NCBI GenBank assembly: GCA_944322375.1
Contig: CALUOX010000006.1
Span: 1 to 46,249, forward strand
Length of the DNA stretch: 46,249 bases
Source of the DNA: an uncultured Alistipes sp.
GTDB lineage: Bacteria; Bacteroidota; Bacteroidia; Bacteroidales; Rikenellaceae
Reading direction: 5' to 3'
This document shows positions 6,837 through 17,133 of this stretch, in pieces; the first letter of the stretch is position 1; every line of letters starts with the position of its first letter. Under the pieces are notes generated by a model. The model made no database searches and was not told the origin of the DNA. It saw nothing but the letters and a program-made list of their open reading frames with translations. The translations under genes and the position numbers were made by a program.

Positions 6837-6876
6837 GACAGGGAGGGACACGCACAAGAGCGTGTCCCTCCCTGTC
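6837..6876. terminator. Strong hairpin between recJ and the invertase gene
   Basis: A perfect 17-base stem (6837-6853 with 6860-6876) and a six-base loop ACAAGA. It lies between the convergent ends of recJ (stop 6817) and the invertase gene (stop 6969). On the minus strand the stem is followed within a few bases by TTTT; on the plus strand there is no clear T tract. It probably serves both directions. Confidence 0.75.
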
Positions 6877-6968: not shown

Positions 6969-7697
6969 TCAACCTGAAGACTGCCCCTGCATACTGCATT
7001 CGGCGCGTTCGGACAACTGCCGGGCACAATCGCGATCCCGAGCCGAACCCTCTTTCTCGCGGTGAAGCCGACGGAGCTCCTTGGCTTCGATCGCATCCCG
7101 GACCAAAGGACAGGCCCGCCGGAACTTGTCGAAGGTATCGCGCGAAAGATCATAATGGCGGCATATGGCGGCGATGGATCTGCCCTCCTCCAACATGCGG
7201 ATAATGACCTCCCTGTTTTCAATCAATATGTTATACTTCGTGCAGGAGCCCTTTCGCCGGCCGAGGATCTTGCCTTCGCCCCGGCGAAGCGCAAGAGCCT
7301 CCTTGGTACGCATCGAGATCAGGCTGTGTTCGATCTCAGCCACAAGGCCGAAGGCAAAACACAGCACCTTGCTGTTGATGGAATTATCGAATGTATATCC
7401 CTCCTTGGTCGTATAGAGCCGAATCCCCTTTTTCAGACATTTTCCCATAATCGTCATCACCTCCGTAAGCGTACGGCTCAGCCGCGATATCTCCGTGACG
7501 ATCAGCGTATCGCCCTGTTTCATCCGGCGGAGCAGTGCTCCGAGCTTGCGGTCCCGCTCGCTCTTTTTCCCGCTGGCGACCTCCGTCACCCAGCCGTCGA
7601 TCGTCCAATTCCGGCTCGCAGCAAAGCGTTTGATTTCGTCCTGCTGATTTGCAGGATGCTGTTTTCCTGTACTGACGCGTAAATAACCTATTGTCAT
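6969..7697 (-). CDS. Serine site-specific DNA invertase (Mpi-like)
   Basis: A resolvase/invertase-family serine recombinase. The N-terminal catalytic domain begins MTIGYLRVSTGKQ with nucleophile S9, and contains TEISRLSRTLTEVMTIMG and FAFGLVAEIEHSLISMRTKEAL. A C-terminal helix-turn-helix (IAAICRHYDLSRDTFDKFRR) would bind the site. From memory it closely resembles the Bacteroides fragilis master invertase Mpi, which flips many promoters. At 242 residues it is about 40 longer than typical invertases of about 200, with a charged tail. It lies about 800 bases from a pair of Mpi-type inverted repeats (8496-8662), its likely substrate. An alternative role as a transposon resolvase is less likely, since no transposase is nearby. 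Confidence 0.9.
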   Translation of the reverse strand: MTIGYLRVSTGKQHPANQQDEIKRFAASRNWTIDGWVTEVASGKKSERDRKLGALLRRMKQGDTLIVTEISRLSRTLTEVMTIMGKCLKKGIRLYTTKEGYTFDNSINSKVLCFAFGLVAEIEHSLISMRTKEALALRRGEGKILGRRKGSCTKYNILIENREVIIRMLEEGRSIAAICRHYDLSRDTFDKFRRACPLVRDAIEAKELRRLHREKEGSARDRDCARQLSERAECSMQGQSSG

Positions 7698-8487
7698 GAT
7701 ACATTTGATTTAAATAAAGGCACCGTTGCCTCGCGATAAAGGTAACCGGAGCTTTTCAGTTCATAGAGGCCTGTTCCGAAATCATACGTGAACGGGAGCA
7801 GATCCGGCCATATTGCCCTTCTACGCACATTCTGCACCGATCTTCATCAGCATTTCAAAAACCAAAGGAGTCTCGCAGGAATAAAACCCATCCCCATTTT
7901 GAAGGCCGCAAAATACCCCGTTACACGAACGACCGTAAGGCACGGTTCTTGCAAGAGCGTTGAAACAACCGCAACGAACCCGACGAAGACCCCCGACAAT
8001 CAATCCCATGTGCCTCATGAATAAAATCTCCTCTCACGACCGCCCGCCGTGAAACGGTCCGTATCCATCTGCATCACACGATTTACGACTTTCCCTGAGA
8101 TCATCGGTCGGCTTCCGTGAGATCACGAAGATTGTGCAATGACTGCATTCCCGATCTTTCATCATGGGAATCCGCTCAATAATTCGGATCCCGCTCCGGA
8201 GTACCGTTTCCGGGAATTAGCCAAGAAACAACAGGCCCACAAGATCCGAACGCGGCGGGAGAATAGGAACAATCATCTTATAATCAAATGTATATAGAGG
8301 AATATTCACATGTTGTTTCGCAACGACACGCTGCGTGAGCGACCTTTTTGATGCCGGCAATAAAGAGATAATCCGGGCCATATTGATTCTTTTCGGTTGC
8401 ATGTAAAAAAGGAAAAATGTTGCTGATTTGTCTAACGGGTCGATTCACCGAAGAAATGGCGGACCACTCCTGAGCGGGCACAAAAGA
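7698..8487. other. Long leader/intergenic region between invertase and invertible promoter
   Basis: Eight hundred bases with no recognisable gene. Near the invertase start a weak minus-strand promoter is possible (TACCTTTA, 7744-7737, without a good -33). Another minus-strand TACATTTG (8292-8285) also lacks a proper -33. No convincing hairpin with a T tract was seen, so transcription entering from the invertible promoter on the minus strand could reach the invertase gene. Confidence 0.5.
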
Positions 8488-8490
8488 CAA

Positions 8491-8514
8491 CGTTAAAACG
8501 TTCGTTAAAACGTT
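8491..8514. repeat. Tandem 12-base repeat carrying the left recombination site
   Basis: CGTTAAAACGTT occurs twice back to back (8491-8502, 8503-8514). The recombination core AAACGTTCGTT spans the junction of the two copies. An outer dyad, CAACGTT (8488-8494) and AACGTTG (8509-8515), surrounds the core. Confidence 0.85.
8496..8506 (+). repeat. Left inverted repeat of invertible segment
   Basis: AAACGTTCGTT, exactly inverted at 8652-8662. The first ten bases fit ARACGTWCGT, the core I recall for Mpi-controlled invertible promoters of Bacteroides fragilis. Confidence 0.85.
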
Positions 8515-8526
8515 GGTGTTCACCGT

Positions 8527-8558
8527 CAAAGGTAGAAAGATATTTTCAGACTTCCAAA
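8527..8558 (-). promoter_or_regulatory. Promoter inside the invertible segment, now facing the invertase
   Basis: On the minus strand, TTTG (8558-8555), 20 bases, then TACCTTTG (8534-8527): a full match to the Bacteroidetes consensus. In the present orientation transcription leaves leftwards, away from the fimbrial genes. Confidence 0.8.
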
Positions 8559-8651
8559 AAAAAGGAATTTTATTGTTTCAAATCGCCTCTGGAGGCCTTT
8601 CTAAGGCTATTGTGCTGTTTTATAAGAACCTTTAATCAAATGACAGATATA

Positions 8652-8662
8652 AACGAACGTTT
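8652..8662 (-). repeat. Right inverted repeat of invertible segment
   Basis: AACGAACGTTT, the exact reverse complement of 8496-8506. The flanking bases are not repeated as on the left side. Confidence 0.85.
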
Positions 8663-8761
8663 AAAACCAAAACTTTCGAACCGGATGCAACATCATAAAA
8701 CCATAAAACCTTACCCGGAAATCCCTATTGATTTCTCTCTTCCCCCACAAAAAGATGTCGG

Positions 8762-10315
8762 ATGAAAAGGCTGCAAGTATCATATAAAATATGGGTCTGC
8801 TCGGTCGTCGCCCTGCTGAGCATCGCCCTCCCCGTTCGGGCAATCCCCCGGATCGACTCCGCACGGATCCATTTCCGCCGCGGTTACGCGGTCTGGGATC
8901 CTGCGTACCGCAACAACAAGGAGACGCTCGACAGATTTGTCGAACAGTTCGAGAACAGCCAAACCGATCCGGCCTCCCGTCGCATCAGGATCCATATCGA
9001 GGGAAAGAGTTCACCAGACGGTTTGGCGACCGCCAACAAACGGCTCTCCGAAAAACGCGCACGGACAATTTCAGCTCTGCTCCGCGAACGGCTGCAGCTG
9101 CCCGACTCGCTCGTCCGCATTACCGCCGGAGGGATCGACTGGGATGGTCTGACGCGGCTGGTGGAGGCCGATTCCGCATGTCCTGCCCGCAGAGAGGTCC
9201 TGCAGATCCTGCGCAACACGCCCGAATGGATTCGGGACGGCCAAAACCGGATCGTGGACGGCCGGAAGAAGCAACTGATGGATCTTCGTGGCGGCGTTCC
9301 CTACAACTACCTGTTGAAGACGCTCTTCCCCGATCTGCGCAACACCAGCATAACATTGTATGGCGAGATCATCGGAACGGAGTCTCCGGAGGAGAGCGGA
9401 CAGGTCGATACCCCGAAGGGGCAAAAGCCCCTTGCGGAAGCCGAAACTCCCGCCTCGGGCCAGACATCGGAGCAATCACACCGACAGGCGGCCGCACAGG
9501 CAGGCACCGCCGACACGGCCCGCCCGGCCACTGCGCCGGAACAGGCACCCGCACAGGCTTCCGCGACGGCAACCACAGCGGCAACCGTTCAGTCGCTCAC
9601 ACCATCAGAGCTCCCGACAGCCGTTCAGAATCGGGTCGTAACCGGCACGAACGACACTCCGGACGTCAATCCGGACAATGCCCCGACGAATGAAAGTCCG
9701 ACACACAGACCGGCACGACAATTGACGGATGACGGTCTCCGGACAACTGCAACGGGAGAGCAGGCTGCAAGCGCATCCGATCCTGTCGGTTCATCTCCGC
9801 TGCACCGGCTTGCCATCAAGACCAATCTGCTTTACGACGCCATTCTGATGCCCGACCTGGAGGTCGAATACCGTATCGACGACCGCTGGTCGGTGGCGGT
9901 CGAGGGGAGTGTCGCCTGGTGGAAACGGGACAGCCGGCACAAATACTATCAGATAGCGACGATCGTTCCCGAAGGCCGTTACTGGTTCCATACCAAAGGT
10001 CCCTGGCATGGACACTACGCGGGACTCTTCGCCGGAGGCAGCTGGTACGACCTCGAGAACGGCAATCGCGGATACAAGGGAGAGTTCTTCATGACGGGCA
10101 TCAGTTACGGATACATGTTCCCCGTCGGACGTTGCGTCTCCCTCGAAGCGGGGATCGGCGTGGGATTTCTGCACACCGTGTATGAAGAGTACCTGCCCAT
10201 CGACGGGCACTATGTCTATCAACAGACCAGCCGGACAAACTGGATCGGACCGGTAAAAATCAAGTTCGCCGTCGTTTGGCGGCTCTGGGATCAGAAGAAA
10301 GGAGGTGCGCGATGA
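8762..10315 (+). CDS. OmpA-like/DUF3575 outer-membrane protein of the fimbrial operon
   Basis: First gene of the fimbrial operon, 517 residues. A signal peptide ends near VRA (residue 27). An OmpA-like domain follows (about 30-150; IEGKSSPDG, NKRLSEKRARTI), then an Ala/Thr/Pro-rich linker (about 215-345) and a C-terminal DUF3575 domain (KTNLLYDAILMPDLEVEYRI, then beta-strand-like repeats with aromatic residues). DUF3575 proteins often open Bacteroidetes fimbrial operons and are thought to anchor or assemble the structure at the outer membrane; that role is inferred. The ATG at 8762 lies about 100 bases beyond the right inverted repeat, and no promoter is visible in between. Its stop overlaps the next start (ATGA). 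Confidence 0.88.
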   Translation: MKRLQVSYKIWVCSVVALLSIALPVRAIPRIDSARIHFRRGYAVWDPAYRNNKETLDRFVEQFENSQTDPASRRIRIHIEGKSSPDGLATANKRLSEKRARTISALLRERLQLPDSLVRITAGGIDWDGLTRLVEADSACPARREVLQILRNTPEWIRDGQNRIVDGRKKQLMDLRGGVPYNYLLKTLFPDLRNTSITLYGEIIGTESPEESGQVDTPKGQKPLAEAETPASGQTSEQSHRQAAAQAGTADTARPATAPEQAPAQASATATTAATVQSLTPSELPTAVQNRVVTGTNDTPDVNPDNAPTNESPTHRPARQLTDDGLRTTATGEQAASASDPVGSSPLHRLAIKTNLLYDAILMPDLEVEYRIDDRWSVAVEGSVAWWKRDSRHKYYQIATIVPEGRYWFHTKGPWHGHYAGLFAGGSWYDLENGNRGYKGEFFMTGISYGYMFPVGRCVSLEAGIGVGFLHTVYEEYLPIDGHYVYQQTSRTNWIGPVKIKFAVVWRLWDQKKGGAR

Positions 10316-11322
10316 ACAAGAGCCGCATTTTCGCCCTGTTACTGACACTCTGTCTCGCCGGATCGGGCGGTTGCCGCAAGGATCTCTGCTACGACCACGA
10401 CCGGCATGGACTGACCACACGCGCCTGGCTCTATCCGCAGTGGGAGCAGGAGTGGGAGCGTGACTACGGAATGGCCTGGGAAGAGAACTGGCCCGACAAG
10501 TACGGAATCGAGTACGACCTGCTTCGTCCCGACATTGCAACGGGCATCGCAACGGCCGTCTATCATGACGACGGATCCCGCACCGAGCGGCATCTTCCGG
10601 CCGAAGGCGGCGAACTGCCGATGTCCGAAGGCGAAAAGTCGATTCTGCTCTACAACAACGATACGCGGTACATCCTCTTCAGCGACCTCGGATCGTCCGC
10701 CATGGCTTCGGCTTCGACCCGCACCCGGCTCCGAACGCTCTACAACTCGACCCATGCCGAAGAGCGAACCGTCAACGCCCCCGACATGCTGTACGGAGCC
10801 TGGATCGAAAGCTATACGGCCGCGCCGACTGCAGAACCCGACTCCCTCGGCGTCGTCCTGCGACCGCTGGTATATACCTACCTGATCCGCTACGAGTTCG
10901 ATTCAGGACTGGAACACGTGACCCTCGCACGCGGCGCACTGTCGGGAATGGCACAGTCGGTGTACCTCCAGGACGGACGTACAAGCGAAGATACCGCAAC
11001 GATCCTCTTCGACTGCGAACTGAAGGATTACGGGGCGGAGACGCAGCTTACCTCGTTCGGCGTCCCGGGATTCGCCTCGGAACACTACACGCAGAGAGCC
11101 TCGCAACAGCAGACGCTGAATCTGGAGGTCCTGCTCAAGAACGGAAAGCTCAAGACCTTCGAGACCGATGTCACCGATCAGCTCACTACCCAGCCCCGCG
11201 GCGGAGTAATCACGGTCAGCGGACTCACCGTAACGGATGACGAGGCGGGAGGAGATGCCGGATTCGATGTCGATGTGGAAGGATGGGGTGAATATGAAGA
11301 TATCGTACTGCCTCTGGATTAA
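10312..11322 (+). CDS. DUF5119 lipoprotein of the fimbrial operon
   Basis: A 336-residue lipoprotein with lipobox cysteine C21 (GSGGC) followed by RKDLCYDHDRHG, the characteristic start of DUF5119 proteins, which sit in FimB/Mfa2-like positions of fimbrial operons and probably form an anchor or assembly part at the cell surface. The start at 10312 overlaps the previous stop as ATGA and has a rare clear Shine-Dalgarno sequence (AGGAGGT about six bases upstream), so it decides against the ATG at 10276. A 73-base A/C-rich leader separates it from the first fimbrillin. Confidence 0.88.
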   Translation: MNKSRIFALLLTLCLAGSGGCRKDLCYDHDRHGLTTRAWLYPQWEQEWERDYGMAWEENWPDKYGIEYDLLRPDIATGIATAVYHDDGSRTERHLPAEGGELPMSEGEKSILLYNNDTRYILFSDLGSSAMASASTRTRLRTLYNSTHAEERTVNAPDMLYGAWIESYTAAPTAEPDSLGVVLRPLVYTYLIRYEFDSGLEHVTLARGALSGMAQSVYLQDGRTSEDTATILFDCELKDYGAETQLTSFGVPGFASEHYTQRASQQQTLNLEVLLKNGKLKTFETDVTDQLTTQPRGGVITVSGLTVTDDEAGGDAGFDVDVEGWGEYEDIVLPLD

Positions 11323-11395
11323 AGACCGGACATTCACGAATAACACAAACACAACAAACACATACAAACATTATTAACCACTCAAAAATCATGTA

Positions 11396-12427
11396 ATGAT
11401 GAAAGGAAAGATCCTCTTTTTGGCCGTCATGGCCGCAGCATGGACCGGCTGCAGCACGACGGAAACGATCGACCAGCCAGAAGGACAGAAGATCGGCTTT
11501 ACAAGCGCCCACATCGGCAATCCGGTCGATACGAGGGCCGTCAGCGTAATCGAGAAGGCGAACATCAACGAGTTCATCGTCTATGGCGGGTACAACGACA
11601 TGACCCATGTTTTCGACGGCGTGTCGGTAACGGGTACGCCCAATGCGGATGACTGGACATATTCGACGACCCGCTACTGGGTTGCAGGCAAGACGTACAA
11701 ATTTGCCGCCTATGCGCCGAGCGCCATCAAAGGCAACGGAACGATTGAAACGGACTTCGCGACCGGCAGTCTGAATTTCAAGGGATACACGTCGGACGCC
11801 TCCAACCAGCACGACCTGATCTATGCTACGGCTACCGAGACGACGCAGGATCCGCTGGAGCAGGCGCCTGCAAAGGTTCAGCTGAAGTTCAGCCACCTGC
11901 TGTCGCTGATCAAGTTCACCTTCATCAGCGGTTTCGGCAACGACATCACGGTTACGGTGAAGAATCTGAACGTATCGGGCATGATCTCGCAGGGCGACTA
12001 TACCGGCAGCACGAACAGCTGGACATTGGGCTCCGCTACCGCAGCCTTTACGGAAATCGCAAGCGCAACGGCCGTCAACAAGACCTCAGGTCAGACAAAG
12101 GCATCGAGCGTGGATTTCGCAGTTCTCCCGCAAACGATCGTAGCAGAGGGAACGGCCGAGGGGACGAAAGTGACCGTTTCGTTCGATGTTACGGTACAGG
12201 ATAATCAGAACGAGTACATCGTCGGCAGTGCCGAGGCCGGTGTCACCGTATCGGCTACACTGCCCGCATACACATGGGTTGCCGGCAACCGCTACAACTA
12301 CAACGTAACGATTGCGGGTGAAAATGTCGATCTCTTCCCCATCGAATTCGGTACACCGGATGTAACGCCGATCACCGATGCACAGTTCGACGACAGCGAC
12401 GAGATCATTCTCCCGACAAACAACTGA
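11396..12427 (+). CDS. Fimbrillin family protein, probable major subunit
   Basis: A 343-residue Mfa1/FimA-like fimbrillin precursor (Mfa_like_1 type). A lipoprotein signal ends at C19 (TGCS). The family motif KFSHLLSLIKFTF lies about residues 164-176. VDTRAV (R47) could be the arginine site at which trypsin-like proteases release the N-terminal strand in type V pili. The C-terminus (EFGTPDVTPITDAQFDDSDE) is acidic, as in related subunits. Two ATGs (11396, 11399) are possible starts, and a tiny ATG-TAA frame just precedes them at 11391. It is judged the major subunit because a hairpin (12497-12548) follows it within the operon and would reduce downstream expression. Confidence 0.88.
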   Translation: MMKGKILFLAVMAAAWTGCSTTETIDQPEGQKIGFTSAHIGNPVDTRAVSVIEKANINEFIVYGGYNDMTHVFDGVSVTGTPNADDWTYSTTRYWVAGKTYKFAAYAPSAIKGNGTIETDFATGSLNFKGYTSDASNQHDLIYATATETTQDPLEQAPAKVQLKFSHLLSLIKFTFISGFGNDITVTVKNLNVSGMISQGDYTGSTNSWTLGSATAAFTEIASATAVNKTSGQTKASSVDFAVLPQTIVAEGTAEGTKVTVSFDVTVQDNQNEYIVGSAEAGVTVSATLPAYTWVAGNRYNYNVTIAGENVDLFPIEFGTPDVTPITDAQFDDSDEIILPTNN

Positions 12428-12496
12428 TCGGCGATTTCGGTACCGGCAGCCGCAATGCGGCCGGTGCCAATCGTCCCGAAACCTGACCAATGATCC

Positions 12497-12548
12497 GGAG
12501 GAGGTTCTCCATCCGCCCGATGCGAATCGGGGAACCTCCTCCTTCTTT
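12497..12548 (+). terminator. Intra-operon terminator or attenuator after the first fimbrillin
   Basis: An 11-base stem (12497-12507 with 12532-12542) continues on one side into a 6-base stem CCCGAT/ATCGGG (12516-12521, 12526-12531) capped by a GCGA tetraloop; TTCTTT follows. It lies in the 148-base gap between the first and second fimbrillin genes. It probably terminates part of the transcripts or protects the upstream mRNA end. Confidence 0.75.
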
Positions 12549-12575
12549 GAATCGAACGACTTGTAAAACGACACG

Positions 12576-13556
12576 ATGGAAATGAAAGGTATTGTCCGGT
12601 CAATCGGAACGGGATTGGCGGGTCTGACATGGCTCCTGGCCGTTACGGGCTGCACCCGCAACGGCGAGGAGCAGGTCTGTCCGGAACAGCACCACGCCAT
12701 CGATTTCACGCCGCACGTCACGCGTGCGGCCGTCACATCGCTGGGGGAGGGGGACTCGTTCGCCGCATGGGCCCGCAAAAGCCGCGACGGCGAATCCCGG
12801 GTGATTCTCACACAGGAAGAGGTATATTGTACGGGCGGAACGTGGAGTTACGACCACATATGCTATTGGGAGCGCGAAGCGGTCTATGATTTTTACGCGC
12901 TCTATCCGCACGATACGCCGAATGCCGAACTGCGGGAGAGCGGCACGGGAGGGAACCCGCGACTCTCCGTCACGGATTTCGACACGCGCGACGGCCGCGA
13001 CCTGATGTGCGCCGAGCAGACCGGCATCCGTTACGAGGGCTCTCCCGCTCCGGTAAAGTTCACCTTCCGGCACCTGCTCTCGAAGGTTGAGATCGTCGGC
13101 CGCATCGATCCGGCACTCGCTGCCGGCGGCGTTTCGGCAAGGATCGTCTCCGCAAAACTCTTCGGGCTGCCTGCAACGGGGAGCTGTACGGTCGCTGCCG
13201 GCAGCGACGCATCGTGGGAGCCCGGCACCCCCACGACAGCCGATGCCCCGTTCCGTTCTGCCGCAGAGACGGCACTCTCCACGACCGGGGTATCCCTTTT
13301 CGGTGAATTGCTGCCACTCCCCCAGACCATAGACGGCGGGGTCACGTTGGAGATCGTCTATGAATATGCCGATACGAACCATACGGAAAACCGCTTCACG
13401 AAGACGATCCGGCTGGCCGACACGGGGCTGACCGCATGGGAACCGGGCACCGGCTACCGTTACGGCTTTACCGTCGGAAGCGATTACATCCTCTTCGGGA
13501 CTCCGGAAGTCGTACCCTGGAGATCGGCGTCGGGAGGCTCCGTCACCGTAGAATAA
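12576..13556 (+). CDS. Fimbrillin family protein, probable minor subunit
   Basis: A 326-residue fimbrillin-like lipoprotein. The lipobox cysteine is C26 (LLAVTGC), and a possible arginine processing site is at R50 (VTRAAV). The conserved fimbrillin block is FTFRHLLSKVEIVG, and the C-terminal block GYRYGFTVGSDYILFGTPEV resembles the end of the other subunits. It probably forms an accessory or adapter part of the pilus. The start MEMKG at 12576 is used; MKG at 12582 is equally possible. The next gene starts 16 bases after its stop. Confidence 0.85.
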   Translation: MEMKGIVRSIGTGLAGLTWLLAVTGCTRNGEEQVCPEQHHAIDFTPHVTRAAVTSLGEGDSFAAWARKSRDGESRVILTQEEVYCTGGTWSYDHICYWEREAVYDFYALYPHDTPNAELRESGTGGNPRLSVTDFDTRDGRDLMCAEQTGIRYEGSPAPVKFTFRHLLSKVEIVGRIDPALAAGGVSARIVSAKLFGLPATGSCTVAAGSDASWEPGTPTTADAPFRSAAETALSTTGVSLFGELLPLPQTIDGGVTLEIVYEYADTNHTENRFTKTIRLADTGLTAWEPGTGYRYGFTVGSDYILFGTPEVVPWRSASGGSVTVE

Positions 13557-13572
13557 ACCAATTGCACGCGAC

Positions 13573-14673
13573 ATGAGAACACACATATTGCATCTGCTCA
13601 CGGCGGCATTCATATTGATGGCCGCCTGCCGGAAGGGCGAAGAGCCGGCGGTTGCTCCGATGTCGGCGGATCCGATCCGTTTCGCCGTGCCGTCGGTAGC
13701 CTGCACCGTCGAGACAACCCCCTTTACACGGACTCCGACCAATCTTTTTCCGTCGGGCGGATCGTTCGGCGTTTTGGGCTATTGCCTGGCCTATTACGCA
13801 GGCACGACCGAAGTCGATCCGACAACCGGGCCGGCATCGTGGGATTCGAAGGCCGTTCTCAGCGCCCCGACGCTCTTTTACAAGCAGGAGGTAAAGTTCA
13901 ACGGCGACGAGTGTTACTACACAGGCGTACAACAACGATGGTACGAACCGGCGGATTATCTCTATACGTTCTTCGCCTACTACCCCTACAGCGACACCTT
14001 CTACACCGTCGAACCCGCTACCCCGACGGGAATCGGCAACCCCGCACTCACCTACACCATGCCGTTTTCAGGCGGAGAGATCGCCACGCCGCGCAACCTC
14101 GACGACATTCCCGACGCCATGGCCGCAGCGACGGTCGATGCCTCACGCCATGGCGGGCATGTGGCCCTGCAGTTCAACCATCTGCTCACGGGCATCGACT
14201 TCACGATAAACAACTACAACGAAAGGAACGACCTCACGATTCACGGGCTGCGCGTATCGGGGAATTTCTACCGTTCGCTGCGGATCAGGATGAATGAAGG
14301 GCTGGACTACTTCCCGGAAACCTTTGCCGGCACATTTACATTTCTGGACGGAAGCGACGACACGGACGACATTCGGGTCGAACACAACAAATCGCAGGCA
14401 AAGGTTGCCGGCAAGACCCTGCTGTTGGTCTCCAATCTGGAGGCCGGCCCCAATTACATAGGGACCGACATATCCATCCATATCGACTATACGTTCATGG
14501 GGCGGCGTATCACCGACAAACAGATTGCGCTGCCCACCGGCTATCTCCCGCAGGGCGGGACGATCTACACCATAGAAGCGAACTTCATCGGAGACGCCTT
14601 CATCCTGAATTTCATTGTCGGGAACAATCAAGTGTGGGAAGACGGCGGCGACAGCAACATTCAATTCGATTAA
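13573..14673 (+). CDS. Fimbrillin family protein, probable minor subunit
   Basis: A 366-residue fimbrillin-like lipoprotein with lipobox cysteine C19 (LMAAC), a possible arginine processing site at R53 (FTRTPT), and the family block LQFNHLLTGIDFTINNYN. An aromatic region (EPADYLYTFFAYYPYSD) corresponds to the segment before the first beta-sandwich in relatives. The C-terminal end is FIVGNNQVWEDGGDSNIQFD. It lies 16 bases after the previous fimbrillin and 9 before the DUF4906 gene, so it is in the same transcript. Its exact place in the pilus cannot be told. Confidence 0.85.
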   Translation: MRTHILHLLTAAFILMAACRKGEEPAVAPMSADPIRFAVPSVACTVETTPFTRTPTNLFPSGGSFGVLGYCLAYYAGTTEVDPTTGPASWDSKAVLSAPTLFYKQEVKFNGDECYYTGVQQRWYEPADYLYTFFAYYPYSDTFYTVEPATPTGIGNPALTYTMPFSGGEIATPRNLDDIPDAMAAATVDASRHGGHVALQFNHLLTGIDFTINNYNERNDLTIHGLRVSGNFYRSLRIRMNEGLDYFPETFAGTFTFLDGSDDTDDIRVEHNKSQAKVAGKTLLLVSNLEAGPNYIGTDISIHIDYTFMGRRITDKQIALPTGYLPQGGTIYTIEANFIGDAFILNFIVGNNQVWEDGGDSNIQFD

Positions 14674-14682
14674 GAGAGAGTC

Positions 14683-17076
14683 ATGAAACGAAGTGAAAGA
14701 ATCTGTCATCAACTGCTCGTTGCAGCACTCTGCGTTCTGCTGCTTGGCTGTACAAAGCAGGAAGAGCTGAGCGACATGGCGGCTCCCGGAGGGAAATTCA
14801 CCCTTTCGACCGTCGCCGAAGGCATGTCGATCCGCACACTCGCAACCCGTGCCTCCGACCCCAAGGAGCAGGCGGAGCGCGAGATCCGTTCGCTGCATGT
14901 TTTCCTCTTCGGTTCGGACAGGAACTACCTCTCCGCGAAGGACGGATCGCATATTTATCAGGGATACCAATACATCGGATCCTCCACGCTGCACATCGAC
15001 AGTGAAGGTTTCGCAAATCCGGATGCCGCCTCCCACGCGACGATCTACGTCGTGGCAAATGTCGAGGCGGGAGCCTTCGGGACCCTCACGGCCGAGGGAT
15101 ATCCCGAAAAGATCCGCAACCAGGACGACTTCGAGGCGTACTACTACCGGCCGACGAAACGGGAGTCCCCGACAGCCCTGCCCGACACGGGAATGCCGAT
15201 GGTCGGAACGGCTGCGGACGTCAACCTGACACAATCCAACGGTTCGGTCGTCATCGAGCTGAAGGCGCTGATGGCCCGCATTGACTTTACCTTCCACATC
15301 AACTCCTCGCTGGGGACGATCGGAGGACTACCTTCGCTGCTGCTTACCGAATGCGAGATCCGCAATGCCGCTACGGCCGTCCGACTGCGGGATGTCGCCG
15401 ACGGCGAGGAGAGCGATCTCGATCTGGACAATGACGGCGTTGCAGAGACTGTCACGAATCTGCAGCTCTATCTGAACCCCGCTTCAAGCGCCCTGTACAA
15501 CCAGAAGAACGAAGCGAACTTCTCGTTCTATGTCTATGAGAACCGCCGCAACCCGGGTTATGACGGTTATCCCGCCGACTATGAATATCCGGCCGATGCC
15601 GACCCCGCACTCTACCAGCGTTACAAGCCCCTGCTGGCCATCAACGGCTCCAACGATACGATCCCGGCCACACGGGTCATCTTCCGGGGCATGTTTACCG
15701 ACGCGGACGACATCGACTACAATGCGACCTGCACGATCTTCCTGGGCGGAAATCCGGAGAACGATTTCAATGTCAAGCGCAACCACCAATACCGCAATGA
15801 CGTAACCATATCGGGCATTACCGCCACCGGCAATACGCCGACCGACGTCGTAACGTTCGATGCGCGTATCGATATGGAGCATACCAGCCCCTATTACATT
15901 TCGATATTGCGGCACAAGGATCTGGATGCCCATTTCAATATCATCCCGCTGGATTGCTACCTTTTCGACGATACGGTCGCCGGTGAAATCGACATCCGGG
16001 TCGATGCGCCGGAAACGAACGGCTGGTTCCGGATCGAACGGGTACCGGCAGAAGTAATGGCAAGCGGCAACGCCGCCGCAAACCAGATCAGCCATCCGGG
16101 CGAAGCCTTTGCCGCCGGCACGGGAAAACGGAAATTCTTCACACGGGATCTGGTCACGGATCCGGCCCAGTTAGGCAGCTCGACGTCGGCGACGTTGAAA
16201 AATCGGGACCGTCTCTACATCTATGTGGATGAGAACATCAGCGTCAATGGGCGCCAGGCCGATCTGGTTCTGGAGTACAAGGAGAATGGCGCGGTAAAGG
16301 ATACCCGCACGATTACACTTGTTCAGCACGGGCTGAGACCCGTGAGGGTGGAAGACGGCGGCGTGTACCAATATACGATCTATGTGGAGGCCTGCGAAGA
16401 GTATCGGAACCACTATGACCCGCTTTCGCAGTGGGGCTCCGAACAGGTTTACGACGGGTTGCCCTGGGGGCCGGCCAACATGGGAGAGATCAATACGGGT
16501 TTACTCACCGGTTATCTGCCAAAGGACGATGCGATAGAGAACTATTTCAAAGGGAAGAGGGGGACTATCGCCATTCTGATGAAAACCGGAATTTTCAAGA
16601 CCAACTGGCTCGGCACACAACCCAACGGGCCGGCGCGTGCCATGATTCTGGACGAGGTACCGCAAACGGCGGCAGAGTACTGTTATCGAAAGAACAAGAC
16701 CGACTCGGATGGAATGATCTCGGAAGAGAATACCTGCTGGTATCTTCCGGCCATCCGCGAGCTGGAGAATACGCTTACGACCTACTACCCCGTTTACAAG
16801 GAGTTTCAGGAAAGTTTCTACTGGTCGTCGGCAGCTGCGGCACAAGAGAGATGGGACTCCCCTGAAGCAAGGGAGTACGCACGAGCCACGATGGCCTATG
16901 TCAACGCGTCGGGGCAGATCGTTCACAAGCCAAGCGGAGCCAGCCAGTATTATGACCCCGATTTAGGGCCGGGAAGCCCATACGGCAAGGCGTTGCGGAC
17001 GCAATCTCTCCGCATACGGGCGGTGTATCGGCCGGCAGACGGCGGATTGATCGACGGCGACAACTATCAACCTTAA
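14683..17076 (+). CDS. DUF4906 fimbrial protein, probable tip adhesin
   Basis: Last and largest gene of the fimbrial operon, 797 residues. A lipoprotein signal ends at C23 (LLLGC), and a possible processing arginine is R56 (LATRAS). The N-terminal half is fimbrillin-like (EIRSLHVFLFGSD; VIELKALMARIDFTFHI), followed by a DUF4906-type middle region with beta-sandwich character. The last 200 residues have WYLPAIRELENT, FYWSSAAAAQ and SLRIRAVYRP, the pattern of FISUMP/DUF1566-like domains that may bind ligands. Large multi-domain proteins at the operon end usually form the pilus tip; that role is inferred. A strong terminator follows. Confidence 0.85.
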   Translation: MKRSERICHQLLVAALCVLLLGCTKQEELSDMAAPGGKFTLSTVAEGMSIRTLATRASDPKEQAEREIRSLHVFLFGSDRNYLSAKDGSHIYQGYQYIGSSTLHIDSEGFANPDAASHATIYVVANVEAGAFGTLTAEGYPEKIRNQDDFEAYYYRPTKRESPTALPDTGMPMVGTAADVNLTQSNGSVVIELKALMARIDFTFHINSSLGTIGGLPSLLLTECEIRNAATAVRLRDVADGEESDLDLDNDGVAETVTNLQLYLNPASSALYNQKNEANFSFYVYENRRNPGYDGYPADYEYPADADPALYQRYKPLLAINGSNDTIPATRVIFRGMFTDADDIDYNATCTIFLGGNPENDFNVKRNHQYRNDVTISGITATGNTPTDVVTFDARIDMEHTSPYYISILRHKDLDAHFNIIPLDCYLFDDTVAGEIDIRVDAPETNGWFRIERVPAEVMASGNAAANQISHPGEAFAAGTGKRKFFTRDLVTDPAQLGSSTSATLKNRDRLYIYVDENISVNGRQADLVLEYKENGAVKDTRTITLVQHGLRPVRVEDGGVYQYTIYVEACEEYRNHYDPLSQWGSEQVYDGLPWGPANMGEINTGLLTGYLPKDDAIENYFKGKRGTIAILMKTGIFKTNWLGTQPNGPARAMILDEVPQTAAEYCYRKNKTDSDGMISEENTCWYLPAIRELENTLTTYYPVYKEFQESFYWSSAAAAQERWDSPEAREYARATMAYVNASGQIVHKPSGASQYYDPDLGPGSPYGKALRTQSLRIRAVYRPADGGLIDGDNYQP

Positions 17077-17099
17077 ACCAACCCTCTCTTTATATGGTG

Positions 17100-17133
17100 G
17101 GGGTGCGGCTCGACAACGAGCTGCACCCCTTTT
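17100..17133 (+). terminator. Terminator of the fimbrial operon
   Basis: A 13-base stem with one G-T wobble (17100-17112 with 17117-17129), loop ACAA, followed by TTTT. It lies 23 bases after the DUF4906 stop and is a classic intrinsic terminator. Confidence 0.88.

Follow-up and report, generated by a model that had tools for sequence, protein, structure and literature searches.

In an uncultured Alistipes sp., a 167-bp promoter segment lying before a pilus operon very probably serves as a phase-variation switch that is flipped by the neighbouring invertase, a sister of Mpi. The locus lies in a 46,249-nt stretch of DNA, here called the window, from a 2.5-Mb genome (GCA_944322375.1, contig CALUOX010000006.1; G000 in our sample). 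An earlier note on this DNA had proposed an invertase-driven pilus switch captured in the OFF state. That proposal is upheld by the co-occurrence of sites and invertase across genomes, the absence of the site pair where the invertase is absent, a near-constant -7 box spacing and an orthologous locus assembled ON in the relative G019. Overall, a flipping-promoter pilus switch is probably real here and of a kind already known. The invertase gene (6969-7697, minus strand) is followed by the predicted invertible segment (8496-8662) and a six-gene pilus-like operon (8762-17076, plus strand), with the following features.

6837..6876, minus strand: terminator-like hairpin that follows the invertase gene (17-pair stem and T tail; consensus match only)
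6969..7697, minus strand: serine recombinase (resolvase/invertase type) of 242 aa, Mpi-sister subfamily, probable switch invertase (Pfam Resolvase)
8496..8662, no strand: predicted invertible segment, 167 bp, assembled OFF with its promoter directed away from the pilus operon
8496..8507, plus strand: left arm, outer putative recombination site AAACGTTCGTTA (11/12 to AAACGTTSGTTT)
8508..8519, plus strand: left arm, inner tandem site AAACGTTGGTGT (11/12; 7 bp from the -7 box)
8527..8558, minus strand: Bacteroidetes promoter TTTG-N20-TACCTTTG (consensus match)
8651..8662, minus strand: right arm, putative recombination site AAACGTTCGTTT (12/12)
8762..10315, plus strand: gene 1, OmpA-like and DUF3575 protein (Pfam DUF3575, 2.7e-36)
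10312..11322, plus strand: gene 2, DUF5119 lipoprotein, possible anchor by inferred role (Pfam DUF5119, 1e-30)
11396..12427, plus strand: gene 3, fimbrillin-like, Mfa_like_1 (Pfam, 3.5e-27)
12576..13556, plus strand: gene 4, fimbrillin-like, Mfa_like_1 (Pfam, 5.4e-25)
13573..14673, plus strand: gene 5, fimbrillin-like, Mfa_like_1 (Pfam, 2.8e-07)
14683..17076, plus strand: gene 6, large protein resembling FimA/FimD, candidate tip adhesin (P_gingi_FimA, 3.8e-05)
17099..17130, plus strand: terminator-like hairpin closing the pilus operon (14-pair stem and T tail; consensus match only)

According to the proposed mechanism, the small serine recombinase encoded next door would recombine two inverted sites with the core AAACG-TT-SGTTT and flip the intervening segment, which holds the sole consensus promoter found for the downstream type V-pilus-like operon. 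In the ON orientation this promoter would drive the operon; in the OFF orientation, which is the one assembled, it faces the invertase gene.

The 11-base inverted repeats reported in the earlier note (8496-8506 and 8652-8662) are perfect, and both arms contain an exact ARACGTWCGT, which we take to be the Bacteroides fragilis Mpi site consensus; the window holds no further exact match. The complete minus-strand promoter claimed between them is present at 8527-8558, facing the invertase gene and away from the pilus operon as assembled. Flipping the segment in silico reproduced the predicted move of this promoter to plus-strand positions 8600-8631, with a plus-strand TAnnTTTG arising at 8624. Also as claimed, no other promoter match was found before the operon; the single plus-strand TAnnTTTG within 7698-8761 lies at 7700, beside the invertase start and 1 kb from the operon. 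The arrangement is that of a promoter inverton, with inverted repeats flanking a promoter that adjoins a surface operon. A detail absent from the earlier description is that the left arm comprises two sites in tandem, at 8496-8507 and 8508-8519. Separately, a -7-like box at 8285 could by itself serve the invertase.

We dropped the 11-bp repeat as stand-alone evidence, its frequency being at chance level: 11 exact inverted repeats of at least 11 bases with loops of 60-450 were listed, some of them nested, versus a simulated mean of 7.4 (first-order Markov). A full promoter inside such a repeat occurs once in the window and arose in 1 case in total across 100 simulations; site pair and promoter are jointly beyond chance. 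None of 300 letter shuffles equalled the score of the site pair before the operon, with the caveat that the relaxed site was defined with these upstream regions already in view, which makes same-locus scores and spacing counts partly circular. The genome has a single strict pair (spacer 132-162). Individual ARACGTWCGT sites show no enrichment (the genome holds 25, against 37 matches to the reversed control), and these 25 exact sites yielded no further in-facing pair within 10 kb. One other relaxed pair, at C33:16764-16921, is without TAnnTTTG. Counts of ARACGTWCGT with one mismatch were rejected as evidence at chance level (14 versus 9.8 expected), as was the relaxed core pair CGTTSGTT..AACSAACG across the genus, with 15 matches versus 25 for its reversed control. 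Combining a site with the -7 box gave 16 matches in 15 of 180 genus genomes, the reversed control giving 6, five of them in one genome; the partner region of one match (L176) runs off its contig, and of the 15 with a testable partner region, a convincing partner arm was seen only in G066, G002, G000 and G019. Rfam yielded no match anywhere in the window, and no close DNA was found in plasmids.

The serine invertase said to lie next door is indeed encoded there, with a Resolvase domain (PF00239, 6.4e-34) and a PDB match to the DNA-invertase 4m6f (6.9e-13). The Ser of its YLRVS motif is invariant across 7 aligned homologues, as are the R columns, and a C-terminal HTH_7 match scored 23.7 bits, slightly below the cut-off of 23.8. 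Catalytic domain, N-terminal Ser, arginines and C-terminal HTH together place the protein in the serine invertase/resolvase family. The enzyme, described earlier as Mpi-like, is a serine recombinase but not Mpi itself, as its score to NCBIfam Mpi NF009949 (240.9 bits, or 243.0 in the genome search) lies below the curated cut-off of 272 and a tree places it on a separate branch from the cut-off-passing homologues of G002 (346 bits) and G284 (321 bits). Judged by score and tree, the enzyme is a sister of Mpi rather than Mpi. The genome has one known strict site pair, and the label of master regulator is therefore withheld.

The target is fimbrial, as had been suggested, and three Mfa_like_1 genes together with a FimA match identify fimbrillin subunits of the type V pilus kind. 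The DUF5119 protein (gene 2) is the candidate anchor and the FimD-like protein (gene 6) the candidate tip, the latter with a FimD_tip_adhes score of 44.3 bits, under the cut-off of 170. Inspection of the translations by eye revealed a lipobox-like Cys in genes 2-6. A model of gene 3 (mean pLDDT 63) matched Bacteroidales fimbrial folds such as 4qb7 and 3ufi with a low TM of ~0.28, the predicted structure of gene 2 (pLDDT 38) was too poor for use, and sequence searches of the PDB with genes 3, 4 and 6 gave no match at E<=0.01. Hairpins in the region, in total, are not above shuffles (9 versus 10.3).

Comparison across 180 genomes of the genus connects the sites, the invertase and the operon. The strict site pair was found in 3/180 and the reversed control pattern in 0/180; an invertase homologue (E<=1e-30) was found in 19/180, including all 3 strict-pair genomes (hypergeometric P 0.001), and was present in 9 of the 11 genomes with a gene-1 orthologue (E<=3.2e-89; the source genome among them) versus 10 of 169 others (Fisher 1e-8), both statistics ignoring shared ancestry. 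Two genomes in the 9/11 count (G187 and G169) have contigs that begin inside gene 1 and lie outside the 12 loci used for spacing below. The six-gene operon is complete and in the same order in 7/7 relatives examined, of 10 with the gene-1 orthologue. G203 and G172 possess operon orthologues without the invertase, and the site pair, looked for upstream, was absent from both; G203 has instead a plus-strand promoter match ~109 bp upstream of the operon. No significant pair was found at the gene-1 homologue of G075 (L092), though that genome has the invertase. A wider sample of the order gave a strict-type pair in 2/295 genomes and the control in 1/295, and scanning 27 invertase loci or neighbourhoods with the spacing rule identified a promoter-bearing pair in 5.

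Both arms, in the relaxed form AAACGTT[C/G]GTTT, surround a promoter in G000, G002, G019, G061, G168, G066, L058, L059, L060 and L073, where G061 stands for L056, L086 and L111 too, all one genome and counted once, and the nearly identical L059 and L060 are counted as two. These ten loci lie before pilus-type or related operons, the genes downstream of L058-L060 (DUF3575 and DUF6562) having a putative link to pili only. Nine are assembled OFF and one, G019, ON. Single-arm loci add G063, which is OFF with a poor site match in the right arm, and G163, which is ON at a contig end. Both orientations thus occur among relatives, as in an inverton. In 10 of 12 invertase-bearing loci the -7 box and the nearer site are separated by 6-8 bp, which held for 0/2800 shuffled regions, a partly circular count; the exceptions are L058, with a gap of 19, and L073, with a gap of 11 and a site score of 9. 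At L060 the highest-scoring pair is without a promoter, and a different pair bears one.

Which recombinase would act on these sites is suggested by their form. Small serine invertases typically use a 12-bp imperfect palindrome with a central TT, and the site here is of that kind. Together with the match of its core to the B. fragilis Mpi consensus, the co-occurrence of site and invertase, and the presence of a single invertase of the Mpi-related family in the source genome, this argues against flipping by another recombinase (for example, a tyrosine recombinase) while the serine invertase acts elsewhere. We regard such an arrangement as improbable, even though G002 encodes three Mpi-type invertases, the B. 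fragilis fimbria-like locus is switched by tyrosine recombinases (PMC12632263), and the G019 pair is distant from its invertase, which lies on a different contig and would therefore act in trans.

A flipped copy of the segment was sought in the source genome and in G163, giving the known copies only, one of them in the source genome, so inversion in the source strain is predicted rather than observed. Slightly less probable than action by another recombinase is a fossil switch, formerly flipping and now locked OFF in this genome: the single copy is OFF, the outer left site has A, not T, as its last base, and the inner left site is imperfect, but the right arm is perfect, the promoter is present, the operon frames are open and the invertase frame is open over 242 codons. 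Very improbable is that the repeats are a regulator's operator around a fixed minus-strand invertase promoter, for although the source genome displays a single orientation and this promoter, the sole full consensus match between invertase and operon, faces the invertase, such a reading leaves the pilus operon without a consensus promoter and conflicts with the operon-directed promoter in G019 and at the G163 contig end, with promoters facing the invertase 3′ end in G061, L058, L059 and L060, and with the missing pair in the invertase-lacking genomes G203 and G172.

Building on the invertase-driven switch, a broader but tentative reading is that the Mpi-sister subfamily may constitute a dedicated local pilus switch in Alistipes and other Bacteroidales, with divergent loci acting as two-output switches. 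In its first part, the site would be broadened to AAACGTT[C/G]GTTT, sometimes doubled within one arm at a distance of 12 bp, and a -7 box held 6-8 bp away might place the transcription start in the crossover site or directly at it. In its second part, the OFF promoter at divergent loci reads towards the invertase, so that OFF cells might make invertase and ON cells pili. Counting against the two-output part, the divergent loci (the window, G002 and L073) are all assembled OFF, the tandem loci G061 and L058-L060 do not have this layout, and a -7-like box is present at 8285.

If correct, the switch would link type V pili, which are adhesion fibres of gut Bacteroidota, with a subfamily of serine invertases in a compact system of one enzyme, one segment and one operon, and pilus phase variation would be measurable by counting orientations in metagenome reads. 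The site and spacing rule offer a means of seeking such switches in other genomes. A search of CC-licensed literature by title and abstract opening found no description of a serine-invertase switch of Alistipes type V pili.

Like B. fragilis Mpi, the window combines a Resolvase-class serine recombinase, ARACGTWCGT sites and a Bacteroidetes promoter within a short, predicted invertible segment, with a surface structure as target. Unlike Mpi, which acts on invertible capsule promoters, the target here is a pilus operon, the genome has one strict pair, and the enzyme falls below the NF009949 cut-off, being 41% identical to a cut-off-passing Mpi homologue (47% over the matched stretch). The Escherichia coli fim switch differs in pilus type and recombinase class, which are unrelated to those of the window, and is alike in controlling fimbriae by promoter inversion. 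Inversion there turns type 1 fimbriae on and off (a reference title in PMC11892184). Fimbrial genes as inverton targets are prior knowledge (PMC11892184, PMC12632263). The B. fragilis fimbria-like locus is phase-variable via tyrosine recombinases (Weinacht 2004, as cited in PMC12632263), and the window would share with it the invertible control of a Bacteroidales surface-protein locus but has a serine invertase. For the hCom2 gut community, the main text of PMC11892184, which mentions neither Alistipes nor serine, describes fimbrillin-family genes as enriched among regulatable genes beside invertons, and such genes adjoin the predicted inverton here as well. According to the same text, an inverton promoter is generally unable to regulate invertases near it; in the window, by contrast, the OFF promoter faces the invertase.

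The repeats, promoter, invertase and fimbrial operon claimed in the earlier note were all found where it had placed them. In window coordinates, the features are:

6969-7697, minus strand: serine recombinase gene (the invertase; Pfam Resolvase 6.4e-34)
8496-8662: predicted invertible segment (inverton) of 167 bp, with the sites AAACGTTCGTTA and AAACGTTCGTTT facing inwards at its two ends
Inside 8496-8662, minus strand: promoter TTTG-N20-TACCTTTG, directed away from the operon starting at 8762
8762-17076: six-gene pilus operon encoding OmpA/DUF3575 (gene 1), DUF5119, three Mfa_like_1 fimbrillins and a FimA/FimD-like protein of 797 amino acids
17099-17130: 14-pair hairpin at the operon end, in a region where hairpin number is not above that of shuffles

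The combination of repeat and full promoter exceeds chance. Exact inverted repeats of at least 11 bases with loops of 60-450 bases are by themselves at chance level (11 in the window, some nested, versus an average of 7.4 over 100 windows simulated with a Markov model). Of these 11, only 8496-8662 encloses a full promoter, and all 100 simulations together yielded one such case. The site-pair score was never reached by 300 letter-shuffled versions of the upstream region. A strict pair, meaning in-facing sites of the ARACGTWCGT type (the Bacteroides fragilis consensus) with a spacer of 132-162, occurs once in the 2.5 Mb genome of 139 contigs, of which the window is one complete contig (G000:C6); single sites are not enriched in that genome (25 versus 37 for the reversed control). 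The left arm comprises two tandem sites, outer 8496-8507 and inner 8508-8519. Between invertase and inverton, we also observed a perfect 12-bp inverted repeat (ATACATTTGATT, 7699-7710 and 8282-8293) with arms 571 bp apart, each containing a -7-like TACATTTG.

Small serine invertases typically recombine at a 12-bp imperfect palindrome with TT at its centre. The system most likely works by invertase-driven promoter inversion that switches the operon ON: the enzyme would join one left site and the right site via the central TT, and the inverted promoter would then face the operon. Flipping the segment in silico moves the promoter to 8600-8631 on the plus strand, ~130 bp ahead of the first start codon, and we infer that inversion occurs in the source organism.

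Orientation among relatives was examined with a relaxed site, AAACGTT[C/G]GTTT, which was devised after viewing the same upstream regions, making evidence from it partly circular. Both relaxed arms and an enclosed promoter precede gene-1 homologues in the window genome, in G002, G019, G061, G168 and G066, and at the fetched loci L058, L059, L060 and L073. G019 is the only one of these ten in the ON orientation; the other nine are OFF. The G019 invertase lies on a separate contig, so any action on that pair would be in trans. Only one good arm was found in G063 (OFF) and G163 (ON, with a contig end falling inside the segment). Pilus-type genes lie downstream of the pair in the window genome and five genus relatives, and OmpA/DUF3575 and DUF5119 genes follow the L073 pair; L058 has DUF3575 and DUF6562 proteins, with a comparable gene run in L059 and L060; a pilus role for the genes of these three loci is putative.

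Among 12 loci that have the invertase, 10 show a gap of 6-8 bp between the end of the -7 box and the closer site, a result obtained in 0 of 2800 shuffled regions; the gap is 19 bp in L058 and 11 bp in L073. The window's 7-bp gap runs to the inner tandem site, with the outer one 12 bp beyond; the site is doubled in the same way in G063, where the two gaps are 7 and 19. Separately, 6 of 18 loci checked (L047 of G002, L088 of G019, L099, L102, L105 and L107) have a G or C run of 7-10 bases no more than 400 bp ahead of the gene-1 homologue, falling within the inverton in G002 and G019. These runs are possibly a source of slippage-type variation or a binding site; for comparison, the fetched sequence as a whole (896 kb, overlaps counted) contains 50 runs of at least 8.

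The OFF promoter faces the invertase gene at a distance of 829 bp in the window, ~100 bp in G002 and ~125-136 bp in L073. This layout is not general, since the invertase genes of G061 and L058-L060 sit ahead of the operon and are read in the same direction as it. The three divergent loci (the window, G002 and L073) were all assembled OFF, at odds with a simple scheme whereby invertase made in OFF cells quickly turns them ON.

The nearest solved structure to the invertase is a DNA-invertase, 4m6f. The earlier description of it as Mpi-like, after the B. fragilis master DNA invertase, holds insofar as Mpi is its best NCBIfam family, but at 240.9 bits (243.0 in the genome search) it falls below the curated cut-off of 272 and sits apart from cut-off-passing homologues in a 44-row tree (42 different rows). 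There it joins a G175 homologue (95/87), with G061, L058, L059 and L060 attached less firmly, and a separate long branch (99/99) of three rows includes the only two passing the cut-off, G002 (346 bits) and G284 (321 bits); 23 of 39 forks are open, the bootstrap is unsettled and adjoining long branches triggered a warning from the program.

The genome belongs to Alistipes as GTDB defines that genus. Strict pairs occur in 3 of 180 genus genomes (reversed control, 0 of 180) and, in an order-wide sample, in 2 of 295 (G000 and G284; control, 1 of 295). Gene-1 matches at E<=3.2e-89 mark 11 of the 180, G000 included, the next genome's best being 2.1e-40. All three site-pair genomes are among the 19 of 180 with an invertase homologue at E<=1e-30 (P 0.001), and the invertase is present in 9 of the 11 gene-1-orthologue genomes versus 10 of 169 others (Fisher 1e-8), both figures being inflated by shared ancestry. 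G203 and G172 are the two genomes with an orthologous operon but no invertase: neither operon has a site pair upstream, and a search at E<=0.001 found no Mpi-family member in either genome, although at 92 and 88 per cent completeness a missed gene is possible.

A scan of invertase loci and neighbourhoods by the spacing rule found a promoter-bearing pair in 5 of 27, so many homologues must have targets in other places, use different sites, or do something other than switch promoters. A further pair, AAACGTTGGTTT / AATCCTTGGTTT, lies at 6677-6831 of L061 (G002:C4) and has a -7 box on either strand; one box ends up 7 bp away from a site and is directed away from a 74-76% identical invertase. This locus has no homologue of genes 1-6. 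In L074, from a Muribaculaceae MAG, a perfect AAACGTTGGTTT pair sits within an 18-bp inverted repeat (11955-12186), with a -7 box between the arms, 21 bp off one arm, and an invertase homologue 5.4 kb away. In another family, L129 (G284:C91:4451-4625) has a TA-centred pair (AAACGTACGTTT) ahead of an open frame with a signal-peptide-like start, judged by eye; the above-cut-off Mpi homologue of G284 is on a different contig.

Of the ten relatives with a gene-1 orthologue, seven were fetched (G168, G066, G203, G063, G019, G061 and G172), and each has all six operon genes in an unchanged order. For the gene 3 model (mean pLDDT 63), the first 17 fold matches are Bacteroides and Parabacteroides proteins with a fimbrial or putative adhesion role, with low TM-scores of only ~0.28. 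In L159 (G168:C11:80000-97000), a pair of type V pilus-like operons diverge from each other back to back, and the homologues of genes 1-3 in the second operon are more distant. Elsewhere in the window, a small minus-strand open frame (2417-2755) contains a repeated FRTLTSSKILR stretch.

This kind of switch is already known. Fimbrillin genes are enriched beside invertons in gut bacteria (PMC11892184), and the 13 regions that Mpi inverts in B. fragilis include seven capsule promoters (PMC4747536), whereas the target in the window would be a pilus operon. A fimbria-like phase-variable locus of B. fragilis involves tyrosine recombinases (PMC12632263), in contrast to the serine invertase here. What is added is the association between an Mpi-sister-subfamily serine invertase and a pilus operon, together with a broadened site, a tandem arm and a spacing rule; in a partial, mostly title-level literature search, we found no published report of these.
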